A stretch of 64,000 bases of DNA from Streptomyces globisporus (lineage in GTDB: Bacteria > Actinomycetota > Actinomycetes > Streptomycetales > Streptomycetaceae), in contig BMTG01000001.1 in the NCBI GenBank assembly GCA_014649555.1, forward strand, positions 1 to 64,000, given 5' to 3'. How positions within the stretch are numbered: position 1 is the first letter of the stretch; each line of letters starts with the position of its first letter. The position numbers and the translations under genes were made by a program. Positions 55,745-62,486 of the stretch are shown one piece after another. The notes beneath the pieces are model-generated. The model searched no databases. It saw only the letters and a program-made list of their open reading frames with translations, and was not told the origin of the DNA.

Positions 55745-56527
55745 TCACTTGCCGAAACGGCGCTCCCGGTTGGCGTACGAGCGCAGCGCGCGCAGGAAGT
55801 CCACGTGCCGGAACGCCGGCCAGTAGCAGTCCACCCAGTGCATCTCGGCGTAGGCGGACTGCCAGAGCAGGAAGCCGGAGAGGCGCTGCTCGCCGGAGGT
55901 GCGGATGATGAAGTCGGTGTGGTCGGCGACGGGTGAGTAGAGGTGGCGGGAGATGTCGTCGATGCCGAACCGGGCGACCAGTTCGGCCGGGTCGCCGCCT
56001 GCCGCGATGTGCTCCTCGAAGGCGCTCTTCACGGCGTCGACGATCTCGCGCCGGCCCCCGTAGCCGACCGCCACGTCCACCTTGAGGCCGCCGCGCCCGG
56101 TCGTGGCGGCGGTGGCCTCCTTGAGCACCCGGGCGCTGGTGCCGGGCAGCATGTCGAGCGAGCCGATCGCCCGGACCTCCCAGTCCCGGCCCTCGGCCGT
56201 GATGTCCCGGACGGTCTCCTCGATGACTTCGATCAGCGGGCCGAGCTCCTCGGCGGGGCGGCCCAGGTTGTCGTCGGAGAGCATGAAGAGGGTCACGTGC
56301 TCGATCCCGGCGGCCGTGCACCAGCCCAGGAACGTGGTCACCTTGGCACCGCCCGCCCGGTAGCCCTCCCGGACGTCCGTGTGCCCGGCCTTGCGGGCCC
56401 AGCGCCGGTTGCCGTCGACCATGATCCCGACGTGCTGCGGGCGCGGCAGGCCCACCAGGGTCGCGGCGAGCCGCCGCTCGTACACCGCTTCGATGGGCTT
56501 CCGGAGGAACAGGGGGAGCAGCTTCAT
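55745..56527 (-). CDS. uppS: Cis-prenyltransferase (isoprenyl transferase)
   Basis: The 260-residue protein has the family motifs HVGIMVDGNRRWARKAG (catalytic Asp in MDGNxR), GYRAGGAKV, TLFMLSDDNLGRP, and the C-terminal DFIIRTSGEQRLSGFLLWQSAYAE (in parts: FIIRTSGEQRLS and WQSAYAE) with HWVDCYWP. It extends allylic diphosphates to cis-prenyl products for cell-wall lipid carrier. Streptomyces has several paralogues; chain length cannot be read from the sequence. GGAGAGG precedes the ATG. Confidence 0.92.
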   Translation of the reverse strand: MKLLPLFLRKPIEAVYERRLAATLVGLPRPQHVGIMVDGNRRWARKAGHTDVREGYRAGGAKVTTFLGWCTAAGIEHVTLFMLSDDNLGRPAEELGPLIEVIEETVRDITAEGRDWEVRAIGSLDMLPGTSARVLKEATAATTGRGGLKVDVAVGYGGRREIVDAVKSAFEEHIAAGGDPAELVARFGIDDISRHLYSPVADHTDFIIRTSGEQRLSGFLLWQSAYAEMHWVDCYWPAFRHVDFLRALRSYANRERRFGK

Positions 56528-56632
56528 GAACCCTCTCCAGCGCGGGACACCAGCACAGGACAGCTGATGCCGACGGACCTTATCAGCGGCTCCGGCCGCC
56601 ACCCGCCGGATCCCGGCGGCGCCGGGCGGGCC

Positions 56633-57163
56633 TCACAACCGCCCGTCGAAGTCCGCCGGTTCGGGGATCGGACGGTCGCTGACCAGGGCGGCGAGCACGA
56701 ACGGCGCGTCCCCGTCGCTGTGGCCGAAGATCAGGCCGACCCACCGGCCGCCGGGGTCGAGAGGGCCCCAGACCTCCAGGTCCCCGTACAGGTCCTGCGA
56801 GAACAGCGCCTCGAACAACGGCTCCACCGGCGATCCGCCCTGCCGGCGCATCAGCGGCCCGTCCAGCCGCACCCTGTGGTGCGGCCCCCAGCGTGCGTCC
56901 AACGCCCGGGCCAGCTCGGCCACATGGGACGCGGCGGCCTCCTCGGCGTCGTTCCACTCGGGGGCGTACACACCGGTGAGCGGGTCGCCCTCCCAGAGCG
57001 GCACGATGCGGAAGCCCGCCCCGGCGGTGACCGTCCACTCCTCGGTGACCGGGTCACCCTCGGCAGTGGTGGGGCCGTCGGCCGGTACGGGAGCGGTGAG
57101 CAGCCCGGCCACCTCCGCCGCCGCACGGTCCGTGTCGAAAGGCTCGCCCGCCCGGGAGGTCAC
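56633..57163 (-). CDS. Hypothetical protein downstream of immunity-like gene
   Basis: The 176-residue acidic soluble protein starts with GTG at 57163, overlapping the preceding gene's stop by four bases (GTGA). Segments GFRIVPLWEGDPLTGVYAPEW, LYGDLEVWGPLDPGGRWVGLIFGH and VLAALVSDRPIPEP suggest an alpha/beta fold. No family is recognised. Translational coupling to the immunity-like gene and position after a toxin gene suggest a second immunity or accessory role (inference). Confidence 0.75.
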   Translation of the reverse strand: MTSRAGEPFDTDRAAAEVAGLLTAPVPADGPTTAEGDPVTEEWTVTAGAGFRIVPLWEGDPLTGVYAPEWNDAEEAAASHVAELARALDARWGPHHRVRLDGPLMRRQGGSPVEPLFEALFSQDLYGDLEVWGPLDPGGRWVGLIFGHSDGDAPFVLAALVSDRPIPEPADFDGRL

Positions 57164-57858
57164 AGCACCGCCCGGTCCATCGGGCGGGGCAGCGGCGCCA
57201 GGGCTCCCGCCTCGCGGAGCCGTTCGCACGCGCGCACCACCGTCGCGGTGTCACCGGGGGCCGCGATGCTCAACAGCTCGCCGCCGCCCGGGATTTCCTG
57301 ACGGACCGCTTCCAGACCGGCCGGCACGAGGGCGGCACGGGCCGGGGAGAGGTAGCCGACCCGGCCCACGGCCGGGTCCTCGACCGAGAACCCGGCCTCG
57401 TCCTCCAAGGCGTCCAGCACGTCGTTGTCGCTCACATCGCCGAAGTCCGGCTCCCACACCCGGGCCAGGAGCGCGAGGACGTCCTCCTCGGGGACGGGTG
57501 CTCCGTCCGGCGCGTGGATCACCACCATGATCGACTGGAGCAGGAACTCCGGTGTGCCGCCCGCCACTCCGCTGACCTCCAGCTCCCAGCCGGGGGTGCC
57601 CGTGCCGACCAACCGCAGCGCGGTACCCGTGAGATCCGACCAGTCGGCCGCGCTCTGGGCGGCGCGCACCGCGCCGAGCAGGGCGTCCCCGTCGGGCGTG
57701 ATGGCCGTCGCGGGTCCGTTCGCGTGGATCTGGCTCCAGGCAGCCGCCGCCTGCGGGACCAGCCCGGTCAGTCCGTCCAGGGTCCGCCGCCACCGACCGG
57801 CCAGGGACTCGACCGGCTCCGGCCTCGGGCCCCAGAAGCCTCGCACCAGACATCGCAT
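57160..57858 (-). CDS. Immunity protein (Imm52-like) for the REase toxin
   Basis: The 232-residue soluble protein starts MRCLVRGFWGPRPEPVESLA, like Imm52 immunity proteins that I recall next to Tox-REase-5 toxins. Further conserved-looking segments are GTGTPGWELEVSG, VVIHAPDGAPVPEED and VWEPDFGDVSDNDVLDAL. It is the first gene after the toxin on the same strand, 53 bp away, with GGAGGAGAG before the ATG. It would bind and inactivate the nuclease domain in the producing cell. Family call is by pattern and context. Confidence 0.72.
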   Translation of the reverse strand: MRCLVRGFWGPRPEPVESLAGRWRRTLDGLTGLVPQAAAAWSQIHANGPATAITPDGDALLGAVRAAQSAADWSDLTGTALRLVGTGTPGWELEVSGVAGGTPEFLLQSIMVVIHAPDGAPVPEEDVLALLARVWEPDFGDVSDNDVLDALEDEAGFSVEDPAVGRVGYLSPARAALVPAGLEAVRQEIPGGGELLSIAAPGDTATVVRACERLREAGALAPLPRPMDRAVL

Positions 57859-57911
57859 GCTGATCTCTCTCCTCCGTCGCCGGACCGCACCGGGTCGCCC
57901 ACAGGGGCAGG

Positions 57912-60485
57912 CTACTCGTCGAAGGCCCCGGGCTTCCTCGTACTGTCGCCCGGTCTCACCGGCGTCGGAACCACCTTGATCGGCAGCCTTGCCTCCCGGA
58001 ACGCCGCGCGGGCCGCCTTCGCGACCTCCGGGTTCGAGAAGTGCCACTCCACGGGCTTGCCGCCGGCCGCCTCCACCTGAGCACGGGCCTCCGCGACGAA
58101 CTTGTCCCTGCCGGAGGGGGTGAGCGTTCCCGGTCGGGACTGCGAGAGGTAGGAGTCGTAGCCGTTCTTGGCCTCCAGGTACGTCTGCCGGGAGGAGTCC
58201 CATCCGTCGTACTCCACCGCGGGCTTGCCCTCGCGGGGGTGCGGGACGACGTACTCCTGGCCCCGGTTCGTGCCGGTGATCTGCTCCTGGTAGCGCAGCC
58301 AGGACTCGTTCTTCCAGTTGGGCGCGGGGTTACGGTCCCGGCTCGCCCAGTAGCCGTCGCCCGCGTCCGCGTCACCGAGGGTGCGGCTCGTGAGTTCGTC
58401 CGCCCAGGACGGCGGGTTGTAGTTGCGCGGGTCGCTGGTGTCGTTGCGCTGCGGCTCCGGGTGCTGCTTCTTGTCCAGCTGCGCCTGCCGGGCCCGCTCG
58501 GGCTCCTCCAGCCGCTTCTGGTCCAGGTGCGCCTGGCGTTCCGCCGCCCGCGCCTCCTCGGCCGCCTTCTTGGCAGCCTCGTCGCAGCCGCCCTCGGCGA
58601 GGAGGATCCGGCCCGGCGAGCCGCCCGCGAGCACCCCGGTGCCGGCGCCCGGCACACCGCGGAACCCGCCGCCGCCCCCGCCGTACGGCACCCCGGTCGG
58701 TCCGCCCGCGATCGCGCAGCCGGTGCGGCGCGCCGCGTCCTCGGCGCTGTCCGCCGCCTCGTCGGCCTCCTTCGCCGCCTTGCGTACGCCGTCGAGATCG
58801 CCCGCGTCCGCGGCCTGCCGGGCCCGGCGGGCGGCCGTGCTCGCATCGCCCGCCGCGTCCGCGACCTCGGAGGCCACCTTGCCCAGCTTGCCGAGTTTCC
58901 CGGCCTTGCCGACCACCTTCGCGACGTTGTAGCCGGGGATGAACAGCGAGCCGACGTTCCAGATCACATCGGTGACGGCCCGGGTCTTCTCGCCGTTGTT
59001 CCAGCGCTCGCGGACCTCGTCGCCGACGAAGATGTCGTCGCCGACCGTGATCACCGTGTTGACGGAGGCCCCGCCCCAGTCCCAGAGGGCGCCCAGGTAG
59101 TCGCCGTCGGCCCACTTGTCGCCCGCACCCGAGGACTCCTTGACCCACTGATCACCGAGCTGCTTGCCGTAGTCGACCAGACCCGACCAGGTCTCCGGCT
59201 TGAACAGGTCGATGATCCCGGAGATGTCGCCCCAGATCCCATCGACCACCAGCCCCTTGAAGACCTGGGTCGTACGGTCCCAGGCGCAGCCGAAGAAGCC
59301 CCAGCCGCCGCAGTCCTCCTGCTCCTCGGCCTGCTCGCCGCCCTCACCCTCGCCGTCGTCGGACGCCTGTACGTCGTAGGCGGCCTCGGGCTCCTCGTGG
59401 TCCTCGGGGAAGGTGTCCTCGCCGGTGCCGGGGCGCCCGTTGTCGTCGGGGCCGCCGGTGCCGCCGCCCGTCGTGGTGGAGCCGGGGCCGCCCGAGCTCT
59501 CCCCGCCGGTCCCGCCGGTCGTACCACCGCTGCCCTGGGTGCCTTCGGAGCCGCCGGAGCCTTCCGCGCCGCCGGTGCCTTGGGTGCCTTCGGAGCCGCC
59601 GGAGCCTTCCGTGCCGCCGGTCCCGCCCGTGCCGCCCGTCGCGTCGCCGCCGGTCGTGCCGCCCGTGGTCGTACCGCCCGTAGTGGTCGAACCACCGTCG
59701 GCCGCGCCACCGTCGGCGCCGCCATCGGCCTCACCGTCAGCGCCCCCGTCGGCTCCGCCATCCGCGCCGCCGTCCGCGCTCCCCGACGTACCGCCGTCCG
59801 CTCCGCCGCCCGGGTCGTCTCCCGCGACGGTGTCGCTGCCTCCGGGCGACACCGGGCACGAGCTGCCCGTCAGCGAGCAGATCGCCGACTGGAGCCCCTC
59901 CGTGATCCGGCCGCCCAGGCCGCCCACCGTCAGCGCCCCGATCAGCGCGACGACGATCAGGACCAGGCCCAGGTACTCCAGCGCGGACTGCCCTCGGTCC
60001 CGCTTCCAGGTGATCATGTGCGGGAGCGAGAACTTCGGCGGCTCCCCGCGCTCCCGGGGCGGCAGCAGGAACCACGCGCGGCTCTGCGGACGGCGCAGCA
60101 GCACCAGGATGAGGACGGGCAGCACCAGCTGGGTGAACCCGTCCGGCGACCCGTCCGACACATTGCCGAGGCCACCGATGATCAGCCAGATCTGGACGGC
60201 GACGATCCCCCACAGCACACGCCTGCCGCCCGTGCGCAGATGCCGGGCCAGCAGGGCGCAGAGCACCCCGGGGGCGGAGGCGTACAGCAGGATGCCGAAC
60301 ACCTGGGCGCCCATGGCGTCGGCGGCGATCGCCGAGCCGGAGAGGCCGACCGCGCCGAGGACCGTCGCGCCGAGCAGGACGAGGAGGGCCACCCGGACCA
60401 CGGCGAGCGGGCCCGGGAGGTCACGCCGGGGGGCGGCGGCCGGAGCCGGGCCTCCCGCTACGGGTATGCCACCGACAGCAGACAT
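57912..60485 (-). CDS. Polymorphic toxin: Flp-pilin-like N region, linker, REase-fold C-terminal toxin
   Basis: The 857-residue protein has, in order: four hydrophobic helices (residues ~22-120), a short basic linker, and a Flp-pilin-like segment with a prepilin-peptidase motif G|QSALEY followed by LGLVLIVVALIGALTVGGLG (around residue 160). Next is CSLTGSSCPV, then ~190 residues of Gly/Asp/Ser/Thr/Glu low complexity (GADGGADGG and GSGGSEGTQG repeats), a WGFFGCAWDRTTQVFKGLV pretoxin-like region, a helical region and an Ala/Glu/Gln-rich charged stalk. The last ~150 residues match the Tox-REase-5 nuclease type, with YDGWDSSRQTYLEAKNGYDS (Asp...Glu-x-Lys) and a VEWHFSNPEVAKAARAAF end. ATG at 60485 gives the helices. 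It is followed by immunity-like genes. Confidence 0.82.
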   Translation of the reverse strand: MSAVGGIPVAGGPAPAAAPRRDLPGPLAVVRVALLVLLGATVLGAVGLSGSAIAADAMGAQVFGILLYASAPGVLCALLARHLRTGGRRVLWGIVAVQIWLIIGGLGNVSDGSPDGFTQLVLPVLILVLLRRPQSRAWFLLPPRERGEPPKFSLPHMITWKRDRGQSALEYLGLVLIVVALIGALTVGGLGGRITEGLQSAICSLTGSSCPVSPGGSDTVAGDDPGGGADGGTSGSADGGADGGADGGADGEADGGADGGAADGGSTTTGGTTTGGTTGGDATGGTGGTGGTEGSGGSEGTQGTGGAEGSGGSEGTQGSGGTTGGTGGESSGGPGSTTTGGGTGGPDDNGRPGTGEDTFPEDHEEPEAAYDVQASDDGEGEGGEQAEEQEDCGGWGFFGCAWDRTTQVFKGLVVDGIWGDISGIIDLFKPETWSGLVDYGKQLGDQWVKESSGAGDKWADGDYLGALWDWGGASVNTVITVGDDIFVGDEVRERWNNGEKTRAVTDVIWNVGSLFIPGYNVAKVVGKAGKLGKLGKVASEVADAAGDASTAARRARQAADAGDLDGVRKAAKEADEAADSAEDAARRTGCAIAGGPTGVPYGGGGGGFRGVPGAGTGVLAGGSPGRILLAEGGCDEAAKKAAEEARAAERQAHLDQKRLEEPERARQAQLDKKQHPEPQRNDTSDPRNYNPPSWADELTSRTLGDADAGDGYWASRDRNPAPNWKNESWLRYQEQITGTNRGQEYVVPHPREGKPAVEYDGWDSSRQTYLEAKNGYDSYLSQSRPGTLTPSGRDKFVAEARAQVEAAGGKPVEWHFSNPEVAKAARAAFREARLPIKVVPTPVRPGDSTRKPGAFDE
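59536..59625 (-). repeat. Two 45-bp near-identical repeats in the toxin linker
   Basis: A 45-bp unit starting at 59536 recurs at 59581 with few changes and encodes a 15-residue GSGGSEGTQG-type repeat. Flanking GADGG codons form a second shorter repeat. Confidence 0.6.
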
Positions 60486-60675: not shown

Positions 60676-62268
60676 TCAGTCGGTGAGGTTCACCGAGCGG
60701 GCCGAGGACGCGCCGATCTCCTCGGCGATCTCGGTCAGCACCGGCTGCGGGACCGTCTCGTCGACGGTGAGGACGACCAGCGCCTCGCCGCCCTCGGTGG
60801 CCCGCGAGACCTGCATGCCCGCGATGTTCAGCCCGGCCTCGCCGAGGATCTTGCCGACCGCGCCCACCACACCGGGACGGTCCTGGTAGCGCAGGACGAC
60901 CATGTGGTCGGCGAGCGCCAGGTCGACGTCGTGCTCGCCGATGGCCACGATCTTCTGGAGGTGCTTCGGACCGGCCAGCGTGCCGGAGACCGCGACCTCC
61001 TCGCCGCTGCCGAGCGTGCCGCGCACGGTCACCACATTGCGGTGGTCGGGCGACTCGGAGCTGGTGGTGAGGCGGACCTCGACACCGCGCTCCTGCGCGA
61101 ACAGCGGGGCGTTGACGTAGGAGACGGTCTCGTCGACGACGTCCTCGAAGACACCCTTGAGCGCGGAGAGCTCCAGCACCTTGACGTCGTGCTGGGTGAT
61201 CTCGCCGTACACCTCGACGTCGAGGCGGGCCGCGACCTCGCCCGCGAGCGCGGTGAAGATCCGGCCGAGCTTCTCGGCGAGCGGCAGACCGGGGCGTACG
61301 TCCTCGGCGATGACGCCGCCCTGGACGTTGACCGCGTCCGGGACCAGCTCACCGGCGAGGGCGAGACGGACGGACTTGGCGACCGCGATGCCCGCCTTCT
61401 CCTGCGCCTCGTCGGTGGAGGCGCCGAGGTGCGGGGTGCAGACGACCTGGTCGAACTGGAACAGCGGGGAGTCCGTGCAGGGCTCCTTCGCGTACACATC
61501 GAGGCCGGCGCCGGCGACGCGGCCCTCCTTGAGGGCGGAGTACAGCGCCTCCTCGTCGACGATCCCGCCGCGCGCGGCGTTGACGATGCGGACCGACGGC
61601 TTCACCTTGTGCAGCGCCTCGTCGCCGATGAGACCCAGGGTCTCGGGAGTCTTCGGCAGGTGCACGGTGATGAAGTCGGCGACCTCCAGGAGCTCGTCCA
61701 GGCTGAGGAGCTTGACGCCCATCTGCGCGGCGCGGGCCGGCTGGACGTAGGGGTCGTAGGCGACGATCTTCATGCCGAAGGCCGACATGCGCTGGGCGAC
61801 CAGGACGCCGATGCGGCCGAGGCCGACGACGCCGAGGACCTTCTCGCTGAGCTCGACCCCGGTGTACTTGGAGCGCTTCCACTCGCCGTTCTTGAGCGCG
61901 GTGTTGGCCTGCGGGATGTTGCGCGCGGTGGCCACCAGCAGACCGCAGGCCAGCTCGGCTGCGGTGACGATGTTGGAGGTCGGGGCGTTGACGACCATCA
62001 CGCCGGCCTTGGTGGCGGCGGAGACGTCCACGTTGTCCAGGCCGACGCCCGCGCGGGCCACGACCCGGAGCTTCCTGGCGGCGGCGAGGGCCTCGGCGTC
62101 GACCTTGGTGGCGGAGCGCACCAGGATCGCGTCGACGTCGGCGATCGCGGGGAGCAGCTCGGCGCGGTCCGCGCCGTTGCAGTGCCGGATCTCGAAATCC
62201 GGACCCAGGGCGTCGACCGTGGCGGGCGACAGCTCTTCAGCGATGAGTACGACAGGTTTCGAGCTCAC
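60676..62268 (-). CDS. serA: D-3-phosphoglycerate dehydrogenase
   Basis: The 530-residue enzyme performs the first step of serine synthesis. It is the long (type I) form: N-terminal catalytic region with VRSATKVDAEAL, VARAGVGLDNVDV, the Rossmann motif GVVGLGRIGVLVAQR, catalytic NAARGGIVDEEAL and CTPHLGASTDEAQ, then an intervening domain and a C-terminal ACT domain (VVLRYQDRPGVVGAVGKILGEAGLNIAGMQVSR, shortened). GTG at 62268 follows GAGGA by five bases. It lies between the toxin locus and ilvC. Confidence 0.95.
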   Translation of the reverse strand: MSSKPVVLIAEELSPATVDALGPDFEIRHCNGADRAELLPAIADVDAILVRSATKVDAEALAAARKLRVVARAGVGLDNVDVSAATKAGVMVVNAPTSNIVTAAELACGLLVATARNIPQANTALKNGEWKRSKYTGVELSEKVLGVVGLGRIGVLVAQRMSAFGMKIVAYDPYVQPARAAQMGVKLLSLDELLEVADFITVHLPKTPETLGLIGDEALHKVKPSVRIVNAARGGIVDEEALYSALKEGRVAGAGLDVYAKEPCTDSPLFQFDQVVCTPHLGASTDEAQEKAGIAVAKSVRLALAGELVPDAVNVQGGVIAEDVRPGLPLAEKLGRIFTALAGEVAARLDVEVYGEITQHDVKVLELSALKGVFEDVVDETVSYVNAPLFAQERGVEVRLTTSSESPDHRNVVTVRGTLGSGEEVAVSGTLAGPKHLQKIVAIGEHDVDLALADHMVVLRYQDRPGVVGAVGKILGEAGLNIAGMQVSRATEGGEALVVLTVDETVPQPVLTEIAEEIGASSARSVNLTD

Positions 62269-62486
62269 GTGAGTCCTCACAAGTCCAGTGCGGACGGCCG
62301 TCCCGACGGCCGCAGGCGGTGGAGGGGCTAGCCGCGTGGTAGACGCACGACACTGTGGGCCCTGACGCGTGTATGTGTTGAGAAGTGTAGTCATGCGACG
62401 GGCCGTGTACCGCGCCCCGGTGGAAGGATCACCCACACGAGGGTGGACGTGGTGTACACCCGTACGGAACGCCCCTGGGGTACTGC

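Follow-up and report, generated by a model that had tools for sequence, protein, structure and literature searches.

By what route could a nuclease toxin headed by a pilin precursor leave the cell that makes it? The question is raised by three adjoining genes on the minus strand of a 64,000-nucleotide stretch of Streptomyces globisporus DNA (assembly GCA_014649555.1, contig BMTG01000001.1, positions 1 to 64,000; this whole stretch is called the window here), the first of which encodes an 857-residue protein that joins four transmembrane (TM) helices, a Flp-type prepilin segment and a C-terminal nuclease domain. It is considered likely that these genes form a toxin-immunity cassette of a polymorphic toxin family in which a Tad prepilin (Flp, type IVb/IVc) serves as the trafficking module. 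That the fusion gene encodes a polymorphic toxin with an Imm52-like partner can be stated with high confidence, and the prepilin module appears well supported as a functional element, both by its conservation and by the linkage of related copies to tad genes. The features of the cassette, in window coordinates, are as follows.

57912..60485 (stop included), minus strand: pilin-toxin fusion gene, 857 residues from the ATG at 60485 (translation, Pfam, relatives)
60021..60428, minus strand: 4-TM domain, residues 20-155 (hydropathy, stand-alone relatives)
59994..60086, minus strand: basic loop, residues 134-164, leading to the prepilin site (charge count); predicted to be cytoplasmic by the positive-inside rule
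59850..60008, minus strand: Flp prepilin segment, residues 160-212, with G165/Q166-S-A-L-E170-Y171, a helix, and conserved C203 and C210
59310..59849, minus strand: low-complexity linker, residues 213-392 (end approximate), rich in Gly, Asp, Ser and Thr (sequence)
58341..59309, minus strand: mid (pre-toxin) region, residues 393-715 (translation); part of it matches a paralogue in the same genome
58029..58301, minus strand: Tox-REase-5 domain, residues 729-819, with YDG...EAK (Pfam)
57160..57858, minus strand: Imm52-like immunity gene P0002, 232 residues (Pfam, kin, linkage)
56633..57163, minus strand: second partner gene P0003, 176 residues, its GTG start overlapping the P0002 stop (GTGA); without known family

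The toxin and its partner genes

The gene and the features that an earlier note had read from the letters alone are present in the translation, on the minus strand, which that note had not given; an upstream TTG start in the program-made list of open reading frames (ORFs) would lengthen the product from 857 to 870 residues. The C-terminus, then described as a toxin of REase fold, was identified by profile search as Tox-REase-5 (E 9.6e-20; the score of 71.4 bits clears the cut-off of 25; Pfam matches were read throughout against curated cut-offs and listed at E up to 1), and its DG...EAK pattern, as YDG or FDG, is kept in the window protein and in 19 of 19 Tox-REase-5 relatives, 18 of them scored by script and L048 by reading. 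The product is thus probably a toxin that cuts DNA or RNA. No protease domain, HINT or other, was found in the window protein by Pfam at E up to 1, and the NCBIfam scan of the cassette proteins gave no match close to any cut-off. A solved relative was rejected as proof of the fold, as the best PDB match (9oz0_B, a Tox-REase-5 protein) reached only E 0.27. The Gly/Asp/Ser/Thr linker is as it had been claimed, running from residue 213 to about 392.

The two genes that follow are as tightly linked as had been proposed, with 53 bp between the fusion gene and P0002 and then the GTGA overlap. P0002 may still be called Imm52-like, as the earlier note had it: its own match lies slightly under the cut-off (E 5.6e-5, 23.3 bits vs 25), and among seven of its kin that were scanned three pass (39.3, 35.1 and 28.3 bits), three fall below and one is unmatched. 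P0003 yielded DUF4081 alone (E 0.021, 15.5 bits against 25.3), which was taken as nothing; neither for it nor for two relatives scanned was a family found in Pfam or NCBIfam, and a PDB search gave nothing useful. Across 40 fetched loci (L036-L075), kin of P0002 occur at all 19 loci with a Tox-REase-5 domain and at none of the 21 others, and kin of P0003 at 15 of the 19 (three of them weak, E 1e-5 to 3e-3; the stretch of L039 stops before the P0003 position) and likewise at none of the 21. Among 35 named loci, 32 carry the toxin domain, and of these all 32 have P0002 and 29 have P0003; the three without the domain have neither partner, one of them (L084) ending early. The named loci overlap the set of 121 Streptomyces genomes searched below, so that the two sets are not independent. 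By eye, neither P0002 nor P0003 has an evident export signal, which fits protection against a nuclease that would reach the cytoplasm of sibling cells.

Some variation in this arrangement may be recorded. In S. anulatus JCM 4721 (L085, 10533-13547) a large minus-strand ORF, NTPase-regulator-like by reading, lies between the toxin and the immunity genes, and a gap of similar size is found at L091; the toxin gene of L037 is split over two frames with both partner genes recognisable, and the toxin frame of L054 is shortened to 279 residues. In the window, the cassette is flanked by two minus-strand genes which, from translations read by eye and with no database basis, we take to resemble an isoprenyl (undecaprenyl) diphosphate synthase (55745-56602) and, on the other side, serA (60676-62436).

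The prepilin site and its genomic setting

The processing motif that drew attention to this protein, G165/QSALEY with Gly at -1, Glu at +5 and Tyr at +6, is present in the translation, followed by a hydrophobic helix to about residue 190. The four helices said to precede it were recovered in part: Kyte-Doolittle hydropathy gives three segments (residues 28-46, 62-80 and 90-108), and the fourth, at about 118-133, lies under the threshold used and is visible only by eye. The Flp segment matches the short Flp pilin of the same genome (48% over 48 residues, E 1.5e-8), and in alignment the segments of the fusion proteins also resemble true Flp pilins from tad loci. At 857 residues, with 165 residues and four hydrophobic segments before the cut, the window protein lies outside the size of a Flp pilin, and because of its bulk and its long leader it is classed as a protein with a prepilin module rather than as a Flp pilin.

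The possibility that the motif is a chance pattern was considered and rejected on several grounds. Within the six-frame ORFs of the window (those of at least 60 residues, 100,755 residues in total), G-x4-EY followed by 20 residues of which at least 15 are hydrophobic occurs once, in the fusion gene, and it is rare in shuffles of the protein (61 of 20,000 for the whole, 17 of 20,000 for residues 1-215). When 121 Streptomyces genomes were searched with residues 1-155 only, the site being excluded, 44 matches reached E 1e-4 and 40 of these, called strong here, fell below 1e-10; G(-1), E(+5) and Y(+6) with the helix stand at the expected place in 39 of the 40 strong matches, from 25 genomes. Homologues that keep the rest and lose the G/xxxxEY motif, which the earlier note had named as a refutation, are thus confined among the strong matches to one broken remnant. 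Among the four weak matches, one (L056) is a fragment with a copy of the motif next to it and the other three are stand-alone 4-TM proteins. In an alignment of 28 N-modules, 5 of the 15 invariant columns fall within residues 165-173 (hypergeometric 8e-5, for a window picked to coincide with the motif), and no other stretch of nine residues in the N-module has an entropy as low as the one starting at residue 165. The named-locus matches were partly found with a pattern containing the motif and were not used in this comparison.

The leader itself has become less of an oddity. A similar 4-TM domain occurs alone in three Streptomyces proteins (L152, L153 and L185; weak matches of 28-32% identity) that end shortly after it, and four helices before a pilin segment, which the earlier note had called unusual, are for that reason less strange than they had seemed. 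The suggestion that the 4-TM part is a PrsW-like peptidase was rejected, since it has no such Pfam match and similar domains stand alone as small membrane proteins.

Whether the genome holds tad and prepilin peptidase genes had been put forward as a check, and it does: its tad locus comprises TadA (T2SSE, E 2e-76), two TadB/C, two TadE, a Tad-type protein (PF13400), a two-component pair and an A24 prepilin peptidase, and a Flp pilin gene is also present in the genome. The mere co-occurrence of A24 was rejected as evidence, since nearly every genome has it (119 of 121 Streptomyces genomes and 286 of 296 genomes of the class); the ten class genomes that do not are absent from the 61 with a match to the Flp segment, as would be expected by chance too. 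Gene distances were measured for 40 N-module copies, defined as matches below 1e-20 with residues 1-215 and including one fragment beside another copy (G068). Of these, 11 lie within 20 kb of an A24 gene, against 0.21 expected, and 13, in 12 of 25 genomes, lie within 30 kb, against 0.31 expected, a limit that was chosen after the distances had been seen and whose probability (3e-18) ignores shared ancestry.

A common gene order recurs at several loci. Tad genes, toxin, P0002, P0003 and A24 follow one another in four genomes (L154, L157, L158 and L107): in the first three, on one strand, a regulator pair or part of one, Flp and TadG, the toxin, both partner genes and A24, with TadB/C preceding the regulator genes in L154 and L158; and in S. 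macrolidinus RY43-2 (L107) a sensor kinase, a regulator, TadG, two toxin genes, P0002, P0003 and A24. Toxin, P0002, P0003 and A24 are likewise found at L070, whose stretch reaches no farther upstream, and Streptomyces sp. SirexAA-E (L105) has TadA, two TadB/C, sensor kinase, regulator, TadG, toxin, P0002 and P0003. Within the stretches examined, tad genes occur at 5 of the 35 named loci and were not seen at the other 30.

At L107 (5456-11610) the two pilin-toxin fusions form a tandem pair for which a single P0002-P0003 pair is recognised, and the prepilin peptidase gene follows immediately; at L158 (11743-15075) the toxin cassette is followed by two A24 genes, the first matched in two frames. 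A sensor kinase and a response regulator also lie beside Flp/TadG in the tad locus of L075 (13390-15788), after TadB/C where the stretch reaches that far, and the pair recurs at L045, L052, L054, L073, L101, L105, L107, L108, L154 and L158, hinting at regulated pilus production.

Exchanged C-termini and a sister class

The fusion is not confined to the window. It was found in other Streptomyces both by genome searches and at the named loci, and a search with residues 1-215 matched 38 of the 121 genomes at E 1e-6, true Flp pilins included; to judge from these sequences, the gene is one of a large modular family rather than one odd gene. The C-termini of 52 fusion ORFs, taken from the 40 fetched loci by a motif filter and thus unable to test the motif, were sorted into clusters that take their names from Pfam matches of one or a few sequences each: Tox-REase-5 (18), Abhydrolase_8 (8), an unnamed group (6), class C (6), a HINT group (5), two pairs (one ADP-ribosyltransferase-like) and five singles. 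In the same genome, a paralogue on contig C13 matches the window protein over residues 12-337 and 410-475 (43% over the latter) and ends in Abhydrolase_8 where the window protein ends in the nuclease. Five changes of toxin label are the fewest that a quick tree of 35 N-modules allows, against a shuffled mean of 15.6, so that toxins are exchanged and yet toxin types stay clustered; four changes of the REase label are forced by well-supported branches of the quick N-module tree.

Upstream of the hydrolase paralogue, contig C13 carries a small ORF that resembles a lipoprotein gene, as well as the hydrolase domain on its own (L002, 2652-3191 and 3188-3943), a possible pair of envelope-side immunity protein and orphan toxin cassette. 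The class C proteins lie in or near tad loci (L075, 4539-7649, on contig C1 of the same genome; also L045, L049, L052, L065 and L073) and have a Flp segment reading GATAMEYLG followed by a constant C-terminal part of about 490 residues, without a Pfam family in the two that were scanned. They may form an invariable tip of the Tad pilus in actinobacteria, or serve it as an adhesin.

A second class, in Streptomyces and other Actinomycetes, places a short leader before the same Flp segment and mostly bears PT-HINT with classical toxin domains. In the Streptomyces proteins of this class that were scanned, a pretoxin HINT domain is found eight times, once together with Ntox21 and once with Tox-REase-5, and a further member has a deaminase and no HINT match. 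A profile of the Flp segment, short pilins included, matched at least 61 of 296 genomes and at least 20 of 105 genera of the class, these counts being lower bounds since at most 21 candidates were scored per genome. Among the 113 matches listed, 50 lie in frames of at least 360 residues, 40 of them outside Streptomyces; 20 of these 40 were scanned, from seven genomes, with 11 frames from one genome (G217). They comprise ten with PT-HINT, seven with a named toxin or enzyme domain (four having both), six without a family and one with DUF4244 alone, below the cut-off. The domains named are Ntox24, a toxin deaminase, Colicin D (two), a calpain-type protease and GDSL lipases (two). The fusions to the calpain-type protease and the GDSL lipases (L131, 3011-4351; L144, 3242-4459; L147, 8053-9123) indicate that the pilin module also bears enzymes other than classical toxins. 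At a further non-Streptomyces locus (L143, 5028-12380), three Flp pilin genes whose ends are almost the same precede a tandem array of three large ORFs with pilin heads.

Routes of delivery

The present observations allow a model to be proposed in which the toxin is delivered by a Tad pilus, the most likely reading of these sequences. Cleavage of prepilins takes place at the cytoplasmic face of the membrane. With four helices ahead of the site, the Gly and the Lys and Arg residues of the loop would face the cytoplasm, and the nuclease would lie outside. Upon insertion of the four TM helices, the basic loop and G165 would thus be left on the cytoplasmic face, the Flp helix would form a fifth helix, and all that follows it, the nuclease included, would lie beyond the membrane. 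Cleavage after G165 by the A24 peptidase encoded in the tad locus may then follow, the 4-TM part remaining in the membrane as an oversized leader, and the mature part (from Q166 on, about 690 residues, with its flexible linker) would be built into the Tad filament or placed at its tip, as a nuclease-bearing minor pilin of large size, or be released from it, with entry into a target cell and killing to follow. The Imm52-like protein, perhaps together with P0003, would shield the producer and its kin, and in the short-leader class a HINT domain could free the toxin. For the family as a whole it seems on balance probable that Actinomycetes build interchangeable warheads on Tad/Flp prepilins (nucleases, deaminases, Colicin-D-like enzymes, ADP-ribosyltransferases, lipases), a monoderm pilus machine carrying toxins to neighbours in two designs, one with a giant 4-TM leader and one with a short leader and a HINT release domain.

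Polymorphic toxins themselves are known; the trafficking module is all but undescribed in the open-access literature searched (most subscription papers and all preprints lay outside its scope), where no description of a Tad/Flp-based toxin family was found and where polymorphic toxins and the Tad pilus meet only in the Myxococcus Kil system. PMC12691689 has nothing on pilin-linked toxins. The other papers enter this comparison in part, and what is said of each here, its silences included, holds for the parts concerned. The window cassette is like the polymorphic toxins of Zhang et al., 2012 (PMC3482391) in its exchangeable C-terminal toxin, its constant N-module, its adjoining immunity gene and the combination of Tox-REase-5 with Imm52; that paper tabulates the pattern FDG...EAK for Tox-REase-5, and its PT-HINT is shared by the short-leader sister class. 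It is unlike them in that the N-module is a prepilin: a Tad/Flp route is not listed in the abstract or Table 1 of that paper, and pilin, prepilin, TadE, Flp and pilus do not occur in its main text. The account of ARC polymorphic toxins (PMC12605009, 2025) names Flp pilins once among toxin-joined domains, alongside anchoring elements; the word tad never occurs in its main text, and neither a tad linkage nor a system such as the present one is described. In PMC8416519 pilins are mentioned for comparison only, with nothing on pilin-linked toxins. The Kil Tad pilus of Myxococcus (PMC8460266, PMC12075869) is needed for contact killing and has variable large minor pilins at its tip, three of four tips requiring the prepilin peptidase, and its authors suggest that Tip4 may carry toxic activity itself. 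It differs from the present system in belonging to a diderm and in having no toxin domain or immunity gene with its tip pilins. With the Flp pilins of Imam et al., 2011 (PMC3244431), which lists three tad operons for Streptomyces avermitilis, the window protein shares the G at the cleavage site, E at +5, Y at +6 and the hydrophobic stretch. Two different small genes downstream of one nuclease toxin, as here, are also found in Tde5 with Tdi5a/b (PMC13392607), a toxin of another nuclease superfamily that belongs to a type VI secretion system; by this analogy, and from its linkage, P0003 might be guessed to be a second immunity protein.

Several points weigh against delivery by the pilus. Neither Flp_Fap nor TadE matches the window protein in Pfam at E up to 1, and in the fusion relatives scanned Flp_Fap is absent or under its cut-off (17.6, 16.9 and 17.1 bits vs 32.2); two short Flp genes that were scanned, that of the same genome included, are also without a Flp_Fap match. 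No precedent is known to us for a 165-residue leader with four TM helices, no search aimed at one having been made, and the fit of a protein of about 690 residues with a folded nuclease into a Tad filament is questionable. Of the 40 copies measured, 27 are not within 30 kb of A24 (19 lie farther away and 8 are on contigs without an A24 match). The window copy itself is 625 kb from the A24 gene, and among its seven closest relatives six are 532-671 kb from theirs and one is on another contig. One draft genome (G099, about 1020 contigs) has a copy of the fusion yet no A24 match, and at the fortieth strong match (L151) the pilin segment is gone from a remnant with an internal stop, beside a TadG-like gene. 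The 40 copies measured for distance and the 40 strong matches with residues 1-155 are overlapping, non-identical sets, and the copies share ancestry. Finally, known Flp pilins have about 60 residues, a short leader and no toxin fusion (PMC3244431), where the leader here is of 165.

Whether the mature protein would stay in a filament at all may be asked within the same reading. As a sub-case of pilus delivery, with a probability that overlaps it, a Tad machine resembling a type II secretion system (T2SS) may expel the cut fusion as a soluble toxin, with the pilin helix as an export tag only. This variant rests on the same sequence evidence, the Kil authors consider such a mode for the Tad apparatus (PMC8460266, PMC12075869), and the HINT domains of the short-leader class fit release. 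However, the E(+5) of Flp pilins is part of the motif for assembly of the pilus scaffold or filament (PMC3244431), so that its invariance favours incorporation, and the window protein has no protease domain, HINT or other, at E up to 1; expulsion is thus held to be possible, on the doubtful side. It is unlikely that the five helices just anchor and display the nuclease, with a prepilin site that is vestigial or serves packing only and with another protease responsible for any release. The four TM helices before the site would suit such a tethered toxin, as would the distance of the window copy, and of the 27 copies beyond the 30-kb limit, from tad genes or A24, and the occurrence of the 4-TM domain alone as an ordinary membrane protein. 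However, a relic would hardly be expected to keep G(-1), E(+5) and Y(+6) in 39 of 40 matches, as the most conserved stretch of the module, and copies linked to tad genes in 12 of the 25 genomes having a copy, together with the same segment kept in the short-leader class, also speak for a module in use.

Export by a route already listed for polymorphic toxins (ESX or type VII secretion, PrsW, extracellular contractile injection or plain Sec) is very improbable. Tox-REase-5 is tabulated with T2SS, type V and type VI secretion and PrsW by Zhang et al., 2012 (PMC3482391), but the window protein has no WXG, LXG, PrsW or PAAR match at E up to 1 (HMMER filters may lose weak matches), and the ESX, PrsW and PAAR routes were rejected since Tox-REase-5 is its sole match at that level. 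Least probable of all is the reading of the protein not as an antibacterial toxin but as a large minor pilin of the Tad type, or an adhesin, that keeps a former nuclease domain at its C-terminus as a structural relic, for although the class C proteins of tad loci join the same pilin segment to a constant C-terminal part without a toxin match, the window protein's kin keep DG...EAK in 19 of 19, have an Imm52-like gene at 19 of 19 such loci against 0 of 21 others, and exchange their C-termini.

To our knowledge, the delivery of polymorphic toxins by multicellular monoderm soil bacteria and the role of many actinobacterial tad loci are both poorly understood. If delivery by the Tad pilus is true, the two would meet in one testable system, with a prepilin peptidase gene, a tad locus and exchangeable warheads in manipulable organisms, and large unannotated ORFs with a Flp helix in or near tad loci would offer a route to new toxins. 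It would also provide a toxin-bearing counterpart to the Tad killing apparatus of Myxococcus. The position of several close relatives beside pilus-making genes suggests that soil bacteria may deliver toxins to their rivals in a way that has so far been little noticed.

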